Below, piece by piece: positions 15,222 through 20,241 of a stretch of 64,000 nucleotides of DNA. A program made the translations under genes and the position numbers. The notes beneath the pieces were generated by a model that saw only the letters and a list, made by a program, of their open reading frames with translations, did no database searches and was not told the DNA's origin. Positions within the stretch are counted from its first letter, which is position 1, and each line of letters begins with the position of its first letter. Location: the NCBI GenBank assembly GCA_022704885.1, contig JAKJFO010000001.1, positions 1-64,000 of the forward strand. The letters are read 5' to 3'. Source of the stretch: Candidatus Rifleibacteriota bacterium. GTDB lineage: Bacteria > Riflebacteria > Ozemobacteria > Ozemobacterales > Ozemobacteraceae.

Positions 15222-15731
15222 ATGTCAGTCAAATGCGTAGTTACAATCAGGCCACAGATGATCAAAGATGCGGCAGATTTTTATCGCATCATCAAAGATG
15301 GCAATTTTCCATTTTTCCCGACCAATATCAAGTCGATAACGGCTGAAAAACGCTTTTTGCGAAAGAGCCGGGAGCAATGGAAAAACAAAAAGGCCTTCAA
15401 CTTCAGCGTATTGCTCCGTGGTAAAGTTGTCGGCGCCGTAGGCCTTATACCAGAACGCGACCGCCCCTACAACGTTGAAATTGGTTATTTTATCGACCGT
15501 GAACATCATGGTAAAGGCTTCGCCTTACAGGCGGCCTTACAGGCAGAGCTATTCGCAAAAGTTTTCTGGCCAGAATTGAGAAGGCTGCAGGCAATCATAG
15601 TCGTCGATAATGCGCCCAGCATCAGAGTTATCGAAAAAGCCGGCTACAAAAGAGAGGGATGTCTGCAAAGCTATCTCAGATGTGGTGACAACTACCACGA
15701 CGCCTATATTTATGGCAAGATCATCAGATAA
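15222..15731 (+). CDS. GNAT-family N-acetyltransferase
   Basis: The 169-residue protein has the RimJ/RimL-type acetyltransferase layout: VTIRPQMIKDAADFYRII at the N-terminus, VVGAVGLIPERDR, EIGYFIDREHHGKGFALQAA (acetyl-CoA binding loop with a G-K-G-F/A variant) and NAPSIRVIEKAGYKREGC near the end. Acceptor unknown, perhaps a protein N-terminus or small amine. Its last eight bases overlap the convergent sugar kinase gene. Confidence 0.88.
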   Translation: MSVKCVVTIRPQMIKDAADFYRIIKDGNFPFFPTNIKSITAEKRFLRKSREQWKNKKAFNFSVLLRGKVVGAVGLIPERDRPYNVEIGYFIDREHHGKGFALQAALQAELFAKVFWPELRRLQAIIVVDNAPSIRVIEKAGYKREGCLQSYLRCGDNYHDAYIYGKIIR

Positions 15732-16716
15732 TAAATTCGATACCGCTGATCTTAACCTGTGACTGAGCGCCGATGCGTCTGATGATGTTGGCGGCGAGAA
15801 AGTTGCCGATCTTCAGACAATCTTCGAGACTCAGTTTTTTGTAAAGCCCGTAGAAAAAGCCGGCCTGAAAGTTATCGCCGGCACCATTGGTGTCTTTGAC
15901 GTCTTCGACTTTATAGGCCGAAACCCGGGTTTCGCCTTCGGGGGTGATCGCCACTGCGCCGGCCGATCCGAGCTTGACCACTGCCATATTGGTAAAGCGC
16001 AACAGTTTGCGGTAATCATCGCTGCCATTATTGATCGCCCGCGCCTCGTCTTCGTTGGCGAACAGCACGTCGATGCGTTCGTTCAGGAAACTTTCGATCT
16101 GGTCGCGGGAAGACTTGATGACGAAGCTGTCGCCGAGATCGAATGAAATGCGGGTGCCGGCTTTGCGCGCTATTTCGGCAGCATGGCGGGTAGCAAAATT
16201 GATCGGGTTTTCGCCTCTGAATTCGTATGCAGAAAAGTGCAGAAAATCAGAATCCTTGATCAGACTATGTAATATCTCATATTCGTAGAGCTGCTTGGCG
16301 ACGCCGAAATCGAGGCCGAAAGTGCGCTGGCCATCAGGACTGACAAGGGTGTAGCACAACCCGGAATTACCGCGCTTGATCGAAACATAGGTATCTATGT
16401 CGTTTTCGCGCAGGTTGTTGATGTAATCATAGCCAAAATCATCGCTGCCGACGCAGCCGATAAAGGCACAGCGCAGGCCAAGATTGCTGGCGCCGTAGAT
16501 AACATTGGTTGGCGAACCGCCCGGAGCTATCTTTGCCTTGTGGGTAGCCATGATTTTTTCGAGTTTGCCGAGATTCTCAGGATTCAGCTCGATACTGTTA
16601 CCTTTGGGCAGATTGAGTTTCTGCAGCATTTCATCGCCAACTTCGGCGATAATGTCGGTAAGGGCATCCGAGATCGCTGTAATCTGATATTTTCTGGCCT
16701 GTTCGCATTCACTCAT
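15724..16716 (-). CDS. PfkB-family carbohydrate/nucleoside kinase
   Basis: The 330-residue protein carries the PfkB signature regions: APGGSPTNVIYGASNLG (substrate side), GCVGSDDFGYDYINNL, and the anion-hole/catalytic motif DTNGAGDNFQAGFFYGL near the C-terminus. Overall resemblance is to adenosine kinase-like members. ATG 16716 has AGGGAG nine bases upstream; the TTG at 16725 abuts that site and is rejected. Substrate cannot be told from sequence alone. Single gene on its strand. Confidence 0.9.
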   Translation of the reverse strand: MSECEQARKYQITAISDALTDIIAEVGDEMLQKLNLPKGNSIELNPENLGKLEKIMATHKAKIAPGGSPTNVIYGASNLGLRCAFIGCVGSDDFGYDYINNLRENDIDTYVSIKRGNSGLCYTLVSPDGQRTFGLDFGVAKQLYEYEILHSLIKDSDFLHFSAYEFRGENPINFATRHAAEIARKAGTRISFDLGDSFVIKSSRDQIESFLNERIDVLFANEDEARAINNGSDDYRKLLRFTNMAVVKLGSAGAVAITPEGETRVSAYKVEDVKDTNGAGDNFQAGFFYGLYKKLSLEDCLKIGNFLAANIIRRIGAQSQVKISGIEFII

Positions 16717-16808
16717 GGCTGGCAACTCCCTTGATAGATGCGCAAAGCATAATCGCAGACACAGCCAAAGTCAATTCATTTGCGGCGAAATTGAAGTTGT
16801 TGTGATCA

Positions 16809-16837
16809 TTGGCTGAAATTTTCGGTACAAATATGTT
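16809..16837 (+). promoter_or_regulatory. Possible promoter of the Hint-pcrA unit
   Basis: TTGGCT (16809-16814), 17 bases, TATGTT (16832-16837), about 34 bases before the ATG of the Hint protein. Confidence 0.45.
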
Positions 16838-16870
16838 ATAAAAGATTGTCAACAGAAAGGACGCTTTGCC

Positions 16871-17983
16871 ATGTTGCCGGCCGACGCCAAAATATTATGC
16901 GGAAACACAACTCTGGGCATCACCGAAATCAGGGAAGAACAGGGCATTTCAGGTGCTTCTGGCTGGTCTGAAATCAACACGACGCGCGTTCGCGATGTTT
17001 ATGTCAACTACGAACAGCGCACCACTCTGCTGAAGATGATTACCGGTCGTGGTGCAGTTTTGCGCTGCACTCCAGATCAGTTGTGCTTTGGCCGTATCAA
17101 CCCGGTAGTCAGAAATTACACGCTGTATCTGCACGAGAGATCTTCTCTCGGTTTCAGAATCGGTCTGTCGACCGACCTGATGCGCGACCTGCTTGCCATG
17201 AACAGTCTCAGACAGGATCTTTTCAACCAGCAGGAAGTAATCGACCGCATCTGGATAATCGAGACGACAGCCAATCTGCCTGCTTCAAATTTCATGCTCA
17301 AGCACACAGCTTTCAAATATGGTCTGCCTGATATTCCGTTTTCGGCCAGGCAGCCTGATGCAGAATTTTCTGAAGAAATGACGCGTGAGATGTTCAACAG
17401 CATCGACACGCCATCGCGTGCGCACGAACTTCTGCGTGACTGGCACATGTTCATCGACCACCCGCATATCACCATGCGCCTTTCCAGCAGCAAGGACCCG
17501 GCTAGCAACGCTATTCAGTTCGTTATTTTTGGCGGGTCGGAAAAGGGCAATGCCAAACGTTTTTCGCACCTGATACAGATTTCCGGGGCAGTCGACAGTA
17601 ACCGGGCCGAACACAAGCAGTTCAAGCGCAAGCAGGGCAAGCATGGACTCTGGTTTCTCGAAATTACCCGTGATGACCTTGAAGAAGCCGAACTATTTGT
17701 TAAAACCCTGTCACATCTCGACAATCTCGAAGTTGTAAAAAAAATCCAGCTGACCCGGAAAGCGCCATTTTATATCATGCCGGCTTCGCATATCAAACCC
17801 GGCATGCTGGTGCCGGTAACTGGGCGCAATGGCAATATCGACGAAGATACCGTAGCGGTCGTCGAAGTCGAAGAATACAAGGGCCCGCTTTACAATCTGC
17901 AGGTGCGTGATCTGCATAATTTCATCGCCGGCAACTGGGTGGTAATGTGTTATCAGCCTCTCAGCCGGCTGACCGGAGACTGA
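16871..17983 (+). CDS. Free-standing Hint (intein-derived) protein, splicing residues lost
   Basis: This 370-residue protein reads like an intein of the kind inserted in UvrD/PcrA helicases. Block A is present as MLPADAKILCG, with the start Met where the catalytic Cys1 should be. Block B is VLRCTPDQLCF, with Gln70 for the TxxH histidine. The end, GPLYNLQVRDLHNFIAGNWV, is block F/G, but the terminal His-Asn is replaced by Met359-Cys360 and a short tail follows. The middle (YTLYLHERSSLGFRIGLSTD, FKYGLPDIPF, PFYIMPASHIKPGMLVPV) also recalls the helicase-intein insert. The pcrA gene starts three bases after the stop and contains no intein. Role unknown. Confidence 0.8.
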   Translation: MLPADAKILCGNTTLGITEIREEQGISGASGWSEINTTRVRDVYVNYEQRTTLLKMITGRGAVLRCTPDQLCFGRINPVVRNYTLYLHERSSLGFRIGLSTDLMRDLLAMNSLRQDLFNQQEVIDRIWIIETTANLPASNFMLKHTAFKYGLPDIPFSARQPDAEFSEEMTREMFNSIDTPSRAHELLRDWHMFIDHPHITMRLSSSKDPASNAIQFVIFGGSEKGNAKRFSHLIQISGAVDSNRAEHKQFKRKQGKHGLWFLEITRDDLEEAELFVKTLSHLDNLEVVKKIQLTRKAPFYIMPASHIKPGMLVPVTGRNGNIDEDTVAVVEVEEYKGPLYNLQVRDLHNFIAGNWVVMCYQPLSRLTGD

Positions 17984-17985
17984 TC

Positions 17986-20241
17986 TTGTTCGACCCAATC
18001 GCAGCAACACTCGGCCAACTCAATGAGCCGCAGCTTGAAGCCGTAAAAACCACCGAAGGCCCGCTTCTGGTAATCGCCGGAGCCGGATCAGGCAAAACCA
18101 GAATGCTGACGGTTCGCATCGCTTATCTGATCGAACACTGTCAGGTCGAACCCGATTCGATTCTGGCGGTAACCTTTACCAACAAGGCTGCGCGCGAAAT
18201 GCGCGAACGCGTGCAGGATATGGTGCCCGGCGCTCACCGGGTTACTCTGACCACTTTTCACTCGTTCTGTTGCCAGCTGCTGCGGCGCTGGCACAAGCAC
18301 GCCGGTTTTGCCGACGGTTTTACAATTTACGACGAATCAGACAGTGAAAAGCTGATCAAGAATGTGCTCAAGGAGCACAAAGTTGATCCGAAACGCTTTT
18401 CGCCAAAAGCAGTGTTGAATTTTATTTCGCAGGCCAAAAACGAACTGGTCAAGCCCGAAGATTACCAGCAACTGGCAGGGCCAGGCCCCGCGGCCGCAAC
18501 CACTCAAAAACTCTATGCCTCTTATCAGGCTCAGCTGCAGGTCAATCAGGCAGTAGATTTCGACGACCTGATCTTCAAGGCATTCTACATGCTCAGAGAC
18601 AACCCTGACCTGCTTACCCGTCTGCAGAGCCAGTACAAGTATTTTCTTGTCGATGAATATCAGGATACCAATCATGCGCAGTATCGCCTGATATCGCTGA
18701 TATCTTCGGCTTCTCGTAATCTCTGCGTGGTTGGCGACGAAGACCAGTCGATTTACAGCTGGCGCGGCGCTACTATCCGCAATATTCAGGACTTCGCCAA
18801 AGATTTTTCCGGCGCGCGCATCGTCAAACTCGAACAGAATTATCGTTCGACCCAGGTAATACTGGATGCTGCCGGTGCCGTCATTGCCAGAAACAAAAGC
18901 GCGCACCCGAAAAAACTCTGGACCGACAAGTCTGGCGGCGAACTGCTGAGTTTTTATCGAGCCTCAGATGACCGCGAAGAGGCTGAGCTGGTGGCGCGCC
19001 AGATCAGACAGTTCGACAGCAAAGGCATCGAGCTTGGCGAAATGGCGCTGCTTTTTCGCATGAACAGCCAGAGCCGGCCATTCGAACAGGTATTCAAGAA
19101 GGCCGGCATTGCCTACGATATGACCGGCGGCACCAAATTCTTCGACCGCCGTGAAGTTAAAGATATTCTTGCTTATCTGCGTTTTATCGATAATCCTAAC
19201 GACAGCATTTCGCTCGAGCGCATCATAAATACGCCAAAGCGTGGGATTGGCCAGACCAGCATAGACAAGCTGGCTGCCGCCGGTCACGGCACTTTGTGGG
19301 AAAACGTTCTGATCGAAGGCAGCCAGAACCCAAAAGGCAAAGTTGCGAAATTCTGCCAGCTGATCGCTGATTTTACTGAAGCAGCAGAATCTTTGAGCGT
19401 TTCGCAACTTTGTCACAAGATTATCGACGACATCGAATACATCGACTACCTCAAAAACGACGATCCTGAGACAGCAGAGGAGCGGGCTCAGAACGTGCAG
19501 GCGATCGTTTCTGACATTCGTTATCAGGAAGAAGACAACCGCGAGCTCAAGCTGCACGATTACCTGGCTGACACCGCGTTGCATGCAGCTGTCGATGATC
19601 TCGACCAGAGCCAGCAAAAGGTACATCTGATGACCCTGCACAATGCCAAGGGTCTCGAATTCAAAGTGGTATTCCTGGTGGGCATGGAAGAAGGAATCTT
19701 TCCGCATCATTCCTCGAAGGAAGAGCCGGAGCAGCTCGAAGAAGAACGCCGCCTCGCTTATGTCGGCATGACCAGAGCGCGTGAGCATCTTCTGATGACC
19801 GCCGCCAGTCGGCGCATGATGTTCGGCAGCTGGGGCAGCAACCCGGTTTCGCGTTTTGTCACCGAAGTGCCGCCACATCTGTTTGCCGGCCGTGGCAGCT
19901 CGTCGACTGTGGCGCGGGCAAGCGAACAGGGCAGCGCAATTCCCGGCGCCATACGCAGCAAGCCTGCGGCAAGCCCCTTCCATACGACAGCGAAATGGTC
20001 TTCAGAAAGAAATTCAGCCGTAAATATGAATGATTCTGCTGGCACGACAGCCGGAACCATGGTAAATTTAAAGCCGGGCGTAATGGTTACGCACAAAATT
20101 TTCGGTCACGGCCGCGTAGAGGAAGCGACAGGAGCTTCTCTGGCCGATTTTCGGGTAACCGTAAGATTCGAAAAGCACGGAACCAAAACATTGCTCTTGC
20201 AGTATGCCGCACTTCAGGTTATAAATAGCGAAAAAGCATAG
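17986..20241 (+). CDS. pcrA: ATP-dependent DNA helicase PcrA/UvrD
   Basis: The 751-residue superfamily 1 helicase shows all motifs: Walker A GAGSGKT (32-38), VTFTNKAAREMRERV, DEYQDTN, GDEDQSIYSWRGA, LEQNYRSTQ, TLHNAKGLEF and EERRLAYVGMTRAREHL. A C-terminal Tudor-like domain (HKIFGHGRVEEA) is typical of PcrA, which contacts RNA polymerase and acts in repair and replication. TTG start at 17986 follows CCGGAG by eight bases; longer frames overlap the Hint gene. The motif IV-like GDEDQSIYSWRGA region, a frequent intein site, is uninterrupted. Confidence 0.95.
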   Translation: MFDPIAATLGQLNEPQLEAVKTTEGPLLVIAGAGSGKTRMLTVRIAYLIEHCQVEPDSILAVTFTNKAAREMRERVQDMVPGAHRVTLTTFHSFCCQLLRRWHKHAGFADGFTIYDESDSEKLIKNVLKEHKVDPKRFSPKAVLNFISQAKNELVKPEDYQQLAGPGPAAATTQKLYASYQAQLQVNQAVDFDDLIFKAFYMLRDNPDLLTRLQSQYKYFLVDEYQDTNHAQYRLISLISSASRNLCVVGDEDQSIYSWRGATIRNIQDFAKDFSGARIVKLEQNYRSTQVILDAAGAVIARNKSAHPKKLWTDKSGGELLSFYRASDDREEAELVARQIRQFDSKGIELGEMALLFRMNSQSRPFEQVFKKAGIAYDMTGGTKFFDRREVKDILAYLRFIDNPNDSISLERIINTPKRGIGQTSIDKLAAAGHGTLWENVLIEGSQNPKGKVAKFCQLIADFTEAAESLSVSQLCHKIIDDIEYIDYLKNDDPETAEERAQNVQAIVSDIRYQEEDNRELKLHDYLADTALHAAVDDLDQSQQKVHLMTLHNAKGLEFKVVFLVGMEEGIFPHHSSKEEPEQLEEERRLAYVGMTRAREHLLMTAASRRMMFGSWGSNPVSRFVTEVPPHLFAGRGSSSTVARASEQGSAIPGAIRSKPAASPFHTTAKWSSERNSAVNMNDSAGTTAGTMVNLKPGVMVTHKIFGHGRVEEATGASLADFRVTVRFEKHGTKTLLLQYAALQVINSEKA

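Follow-up and report, generated by a model that had tools for sequence, protein, structure and literature searches.

Inteins are usually viewed as parasites and lately as conditional switches within their hosts, and PcrA/UvrD is a central repair and transcription-conflict helicase. Inteins in UvrD, Rep and PcrA are listed in an excerpt of PMC5874633. According to excerpts of PMC7282813, the yeast HO and WHO genes are intein-derived, exteinless and independent; they carry an added zinc finger and retain nuclease activity, HO being domesticated and the mobile, clustered WHO genes adjoining their target gene. The same excerpts cite the bacterial regulator WhiA/DUF199 as derived from a LAGLIDADG nuclease. 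Here we describe a locus on a 64,000-nucleotide stretch of DNA from Candidatus Rifleibacteriota bacterium (contig JAKJFO010000001.1, positions 1 to 64,000; hereafter the window), in which a free-standing gene coding for 370 amino acids (16871..17983, on the forward strand, as are all features below unless stated) lies directly ahead of pcrA (17986..20241), coding for a UvrD/PcrA helicase of 751 amino acids with a TTG start. The first-pass annotation of this DNA had proposed a splicing-dead intein-like protein with its own gene ahead of pcrA; the observation is confirmed and the interpretation supported by sequence, profiles and a structure model, which together identify the gene as a PcrA intein that has been domesticated, no longer splices and probably no longer cuts DNA.

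The structure model of the protein shows the Hint fold that the first-pass annotation had expected, with a hedgehog Hint domain as the top fold match. The profile search suggested there succeeded in part: the window sequence alone scores below the Pfam cut-off (24.7 versus 35.8 bits), whereas the family profile A1 (34 rows, chimeric P0078 included) matches the intact PcrA inteins of G037-G039 with E from 6e-72 to 1e-73 over positions 4-360. In these three genomes, which belong to the same phylum set, the element lies inside PcrA in uninterrupted frames of 1025-1130 amino acids (one ended by a contig end), with the borders GDDDQ/CVCANS...VVHN/SIYSWRGA, slashes marking the junctions. The intein of this type, searched as host region with length limits that keep free forms out, yielded 43 proteins, including records labelled Wallbacteria, Rokubacteria and Patescibacteria. 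Of the 41 proteins tried (all but P0120 and P0121), 39 are cleanly bordered, starting with Cys and ending with His-Asn; P0119 passes a looser pattern, and for P0113 no start was obtained. Against intact PcrA inteins of several phyla, the window protein aligns collinearly and over its full length, so that the free protein descends from a PcrA intein; this full-length relationship and the Hint fold place it in the Hint/intein superfamily, and its sequence makes it a member of the PcrA intein family whose insertion site is GDxDQ/SIY. The corresponding site in the window pcrA, which had been annotated as uninterrupted, indeed reads GDEDQ/SIYSWRG (18733..18768, junction between 18747 and 18748), and the old insertion site is likewise empty in every one of the loci L007-L028 that extends to it (21 of 21; L010 is too short). 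Homologues with intact splicing residues, which the first-pass annotation would have counted against itself if joined to other exteins, do exist, but their place is inside PcrA, at exactly the site left empty here, in support of its proposal that the intein left its host gene.

The splicing residues were followed in alignment A2, whose 74 window-type rows comprise the window and 73 of 78 homologues (taken irrespective of their genomic place), and which omits chimeric P0078, the fragments P0030, P0053, P0072 and P0074 and the later divergent forms P0122-P0126. In the N-terminal half of the Hint domain (residues 1-75, 16871..17095), Cys1 has become Met1 and the block B His has become Gln70; Cys1 occurs in none of the 74 rows (Met in 68, Val in 2, gap in 4), and the block B His persists in 26, with Gln in 48. 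In the C-terminal half (residues 300-360, 17768..17950), the terminal His-Asn is replaced by Met359-Cys360; neither the penultimate His nor the terminal Asn is found in any row, and position 360 is Cys in 42, Ser or Ala in 31 and Glu in 1. The 40 intact inteins carry Cys1, His and Asn by selection, because the border pattern itself demands Cys1 and HN followed by S, T or C, while their block B His, also present in 40 of 40, was not selected for. The window protein thus has neither an N-terminal Cys/Ser nucleophile nor a C-terminal His-Asn with a +1 Cys/Ser/Thr in an extein; it has no exteins at all, but its own ATG start and TGA stop, and to judge by the alignment it lacks the residues needed for splicing. 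A tail of 10 residues (17951..17980) continues past the ancestral splice junction; it is variable, with a mean predicted local distance difference test (pLDDT) score of 43 for residues 361-370. Two loci (L026 and L027, of G018 and G019) lack the C-terminal tail that the others have, their free protein terminating with FFVGA or FFIGA, right where the Hint domain ends.

Between the two Hint halves lie two inserted modules. The first (residues 76-160, 17096..17350) is probably GIY-YIG-like, as suggested by weak fold and family matches; the set A3 of central regions has 14 members, out of 38 that could be excised. GIY-YIG nucleases depend on a catalytic Arg and Glu, and the corresponding columns were chosen from conservation in the intact relatives and from general knowledge of the family. 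At these columns, Arg104 is kept in 0 of 74 window-type rows versus 28 of 40 intact inteins, Arg or Lys at 118 in 2 versus 39, and Glu143, which is Leu in the window, in 30 versus 38; all three are kept in none of the 74 and in 28 of the 40. The loss at position 104 is to be read with caution, as the alignment is loose there and 35 of 74 rows, the window included, have Arg at column 105. With the inferred catalytic Arg and Glu both missing from the window protein, the cutting function of the nuclease has apparently been lost. The second module (residues 161-299, 17351..17767), to which no fold was assigned, behaves differently: its mean majority frequency of 0.70 in the window type is the joint top value with the C-terminal Hint half, versus 0.47, the lowest of any part, in intact inteins, a comparison in which the shift in rank matters and the absolute value does not, because a young clade is set against an old one and mostly-gap columns are scored 0. 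Moreover, 11 of the 22 positions that are at least 95% fixed in the window type but shared by fewer than 40% of intact inteins fall within residues 270-293, and a new function may be located in this second module.

The pairing with pcrA recurs among relatives, as the first-pass annotation had proposed to verify. Among 39 genomes assigned to the phylum of G001, the free gene stands immediately 5' of pcrA in 23, which are all those with a match better than 1e-100; the locus of G022 is interrupted by a contig end, and the other 22 are whole on one contig, with the gene preceding pcrA on its strand in every one. In these whole loci, the nearest candidate pcrA start ranges from a 17-base overlap with the gene to 18 bases after its stop (two bases separate the stop from the TTG at 17986 in the window), and the relative frames 0, 1 and 2 are all seen. 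The two are therefore adjoining genes and not one frameshifted gene, and their translation is likely coupled, because pcrA starts close to or overlapping the stop in any frame. Each window-type genome has a single match in 22 of 23 cases, the last having one gene split over two contigs, and no clusters occur. In the four neighbourhoods that were read, a kinase-like gene adjoins the pair on its 5' side in L001, L004 and the window; in L005 what looks by eye like a glutamine-synthetase gene is inserted between that gene and the pair, and the pair is kept. This conserved place before a helicase gene, seen throughout a group of uncultured bacteria, suggests a present use for the host. The rest of the sample comprises three genomes with an intact PcrA intein (G037-G039), two with an intact intein within a degenerate PcrA-like protein (G007, G008), five with a free relative away from pcrA (G006, G009, G029-G031) and six without a match (G013, G032-G036), these absences being soft as genome completeness is not given.

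The gene is under strong purifying selection. In the ten pairs formed by the window and four close genomes, the ratio of nonsynonymous to synonymous substitution rates (dN/dS) lies between 0.025 and 0.059 for the gene and between 0.020 and 0.054 for the portion of pcrA that was compared, with the synonymous rate (dS) near saturation in most pairs; the least divergent pair, the window and G001, gives 0.026 at a dS of 0.91. The compared frames include up to 18 codons 5' of the start, which if anything should raise dN, and the pcrA comparisons are limited to its first 475-487 codons, with 118 for G003 and 394 for the window. Four further pairs range from 0.028 to 0.148 for the gene and from 0.040 to 0.215 for pcrA. 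In all 22 whole loci the reading frame stays open over the entire gene; the internal stop scored for G018 and G019 is the TAG that terminates the gene itself, which the profile match runs past. Across the window and 22 genomes, distances between the genes track those between the pcrA genes (Pearson 0.78, Spearman 0.60, Mantel p 0.0001). In the trees, the window-type proteins (22 rows) fall on one side of a branch with support 100/99, and the adjoining pcrA genes (23 rows) do so with support 99/99; the protein tree omits, for size, the window-type G001-G004, G024 and G028 and the inteins P0079, P0080 and P0096, and also G039, whose sequence is incomplete.

On this evidence we lean, with somewhat more confidence than doubt, towards a domesticated PcrA intein that is made together with PcrA and acts as its nucleic-acid-binding partner; a partner or nucleic-acid-binding role fits the selection, the synteny and the loss of catalytic residues. 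A pcrA copy carrying the intein would have decayed, with the intein alone retained; the dead protein would be made together with PcrA through translational coupling and would bind nucleic acid through the surface with which its nuclease part ancestrally recognized DNA, with the Hint domain now serving as a scaffold. A trace of the decay stage may survive in the two genomes that still have a degenerate helicase around an intact intein. Specifically, G007 and G008 (L034/L073, L035/L074) carry, directly 5' of polC (named by NCBIfam), a PcrA-like protein with intact intein ends (C1...HN/S), in which the helicase motifs that we take to be II, III, V and VI look degenerate by eye. In both genomes, the sole PcrA Tudor family match found is this same protein, with a good Tudor domain, in a search of limited sensitivity (in G001, whose PcrA is of the window type, the Tudor region scores 22.8 bits and falls below the cut-off). 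This pseudo-helicase may still be able to splice. In G009 (L069), a divergent free intein-derived gene lies 5' of a STAS gene and polC (both by NCBIfam), a neighbourhood resembling that of the pseudo-helicase, and the three loci give the impression of a host gene that decayed while its intein was retained. A further step, in which the intein became an obligate, stoichiometric PcrA subunit via a pseudo-helicase stage, losing splicing and cutting and gaining binding beside a dead nuclease, is proposed tentatively, at rather less than even confidence. These decay loci are not where the pcrA-linked pair lies, and the tree places G009, on a long branch, among the intact inteins (97/88), so that more than one liberation of the intein is possible; tree tests are not decisive, with an approximately unbiased (AU) p of 0.08 for a single clade of all free forms and of 0.28 for the window type with the G029-G031 type. 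The latter is a second free-standing type (L066-L068 of G029-G031, and P0122-P0126), conserved among themselves, with neighbours that by eye are galU-trpG-rluB-like; the records behind P0123 and P0126 are labelled Wallbacteria and Riflebacteria, respectively. UvrD-type matches number none in G029, one in G030 (a 1168-amino-acid frame) and two in G031, none of them close to the window PcrA.

Among mechanisms, we rank the nucleic-acid-binding PcrA partner first and an autoregulator second. The latter would be a homing nuclease that no longer cleaves but has kept its DNA binding, and that controls the operon led by its own gene; we hold this reading to be unlikely. The gene is the first of its unit, because its 5' neighbour (15724-16725) is on the opposite strand; the proposed catalytic residues are lost while the second module is conserved, and WhiA/DUF199 offers a precedent (excerpts of PMC7282813). 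Synonymous-site conservation in 22 pcrA sequences speaks on both sides: only 21 of 414 windows of 15 codons beat the best of the four insertion-site windows, but the other three are exceeded by 31, 65 and 84 of 414, and the strongest constraint lies elsewhere in pcrA. Free forms away from pcrA would need a different target. Distinctly unlikely is a domesticated function unrelated to PcrA, with a linkage that merely persisted after release; free relatives near other genes in five of the 39 genomes are compatible with it, but the linkage is unbroken in the 23 window-type genomes despite the insertion beside the pair in L005.

A homing element that still cuts other pcrA alleles from beside its target would have the layout of the yeast WHO genes, exteinless intein-like genes adjoining their target (excerpts of PMC7282813), but it is very improbable here: no row of the 74 has the complete proposed catalytic set, distances track pcrA, dN/dS is as low as in pcrA, and matches are single, the one split gene aside, and never clustered. 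Altered self-processing, a hedgehog-like or bacterial intein-like (BIL) cleavage in place of a scaffold role, hardly deserves credence; the hedgehog Hint domain is the best fold match and Cys360 is common, but the N-terminal nucleophile is missing, nothing lies N-terminal to cleave from, and position 360 is Ser or Ala in 31 of 74 rows and Glu in 1. A functionless, decaying remnant would account for the loss of every splicing residue, but is contradicted, to the point of being practically dismissed, by the low dN/dS and the open frames. Beyond these readings, a chance open reading frame is ruled out by the 78 homologues, a pseudogene by dN/dS, and a PcrA-intein fusion via frameshift or read-through by the occurrence of all three relative frames.

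Upstream of the gene, a putative Shine-Dalgarno sequence, AGAAAGGA (16854..16861), was recognized by eye, and its GAAAGGA is identical in five upstream sequences (the window and L001-L004). A candidate promoter block, TGGCTGAAATTTTC...TATAAAAG (16810..16844), is partially conserved by eye across the same five aligned regions; it is rated weak because a sigma-70 scan reported no site at this block. Within the compared part of pcrA, the window stretch ELGEMALLFRMNSQSRPFEQVFKKA has the highest synonymous-site conservation (window and 21 genomes). The closest protein found, at 96% identity, is from Candidatus Rifleibacterium amylolyticum, so the window probably belongs to this genus. Among intein-bearing proteins more broadly, P0121 (1877 amino acids), which has MCM Pfam domains, contains an HN motif followed by a nucleophile four times and may host several inteins. 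UvrD-type proteins of viral contigs (L104-L126) also contain inteins, mostly at GDxxQ/C, with a central region like VYLMYxxxxGYRIG, and about half have no HN[STC] end in the scanned frame.

Lastly, the locus can be set against the known systems. In the open-access literature, we found no paper on Riflebacteria inteins and none joining intein, GIY-YIG and UvrD. The nearest kin are the PcrA/UvrD inteins of superfamily 1 (SF1) helicases, which share the Hint blocks, the central region and the host gene pcrA; the window protein differs in having neither exteins nor splicing residues and in being a separate gene 5' of the host gene. Hedgehog Hint and BIL domains share the Hint fold; they retain a nucleophile and self-process, whereas the window protein has no such nucleophile. 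Like WhiA/DUF199, which is not known to have a Hint domain, it would be a homing-nuclease descendant that no longer cuts and is kept by bacteria. By analogy, the closest precedent is provided by HO and WHO, as the window gene is likewise an exteinless, intein-derived and independent gene. No Pfam zinc finger, a feature of HO and WHO, was found in the window protein at E ≤ 1, and the protein ends 10 residues past the Hint domain. Unlike HO and WHO, it is bacterial, its proposed nuclease residues are lost and its distances track pcrA; the sequence argues against a site-specific endonuclease activity of their kind. The relatives preserve apparent intermediates of the path from intein to free gene, and a domesticated intein at this place would point to a new partner or regulator of PcrA/UvrD. 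An intein-derived gene strictly conserved in a bacterial group, with splicing lost and apparently cutting too, would be the counterpart of HO in bacteria, one in which the body of the element, and not its catalysis, has been kept.
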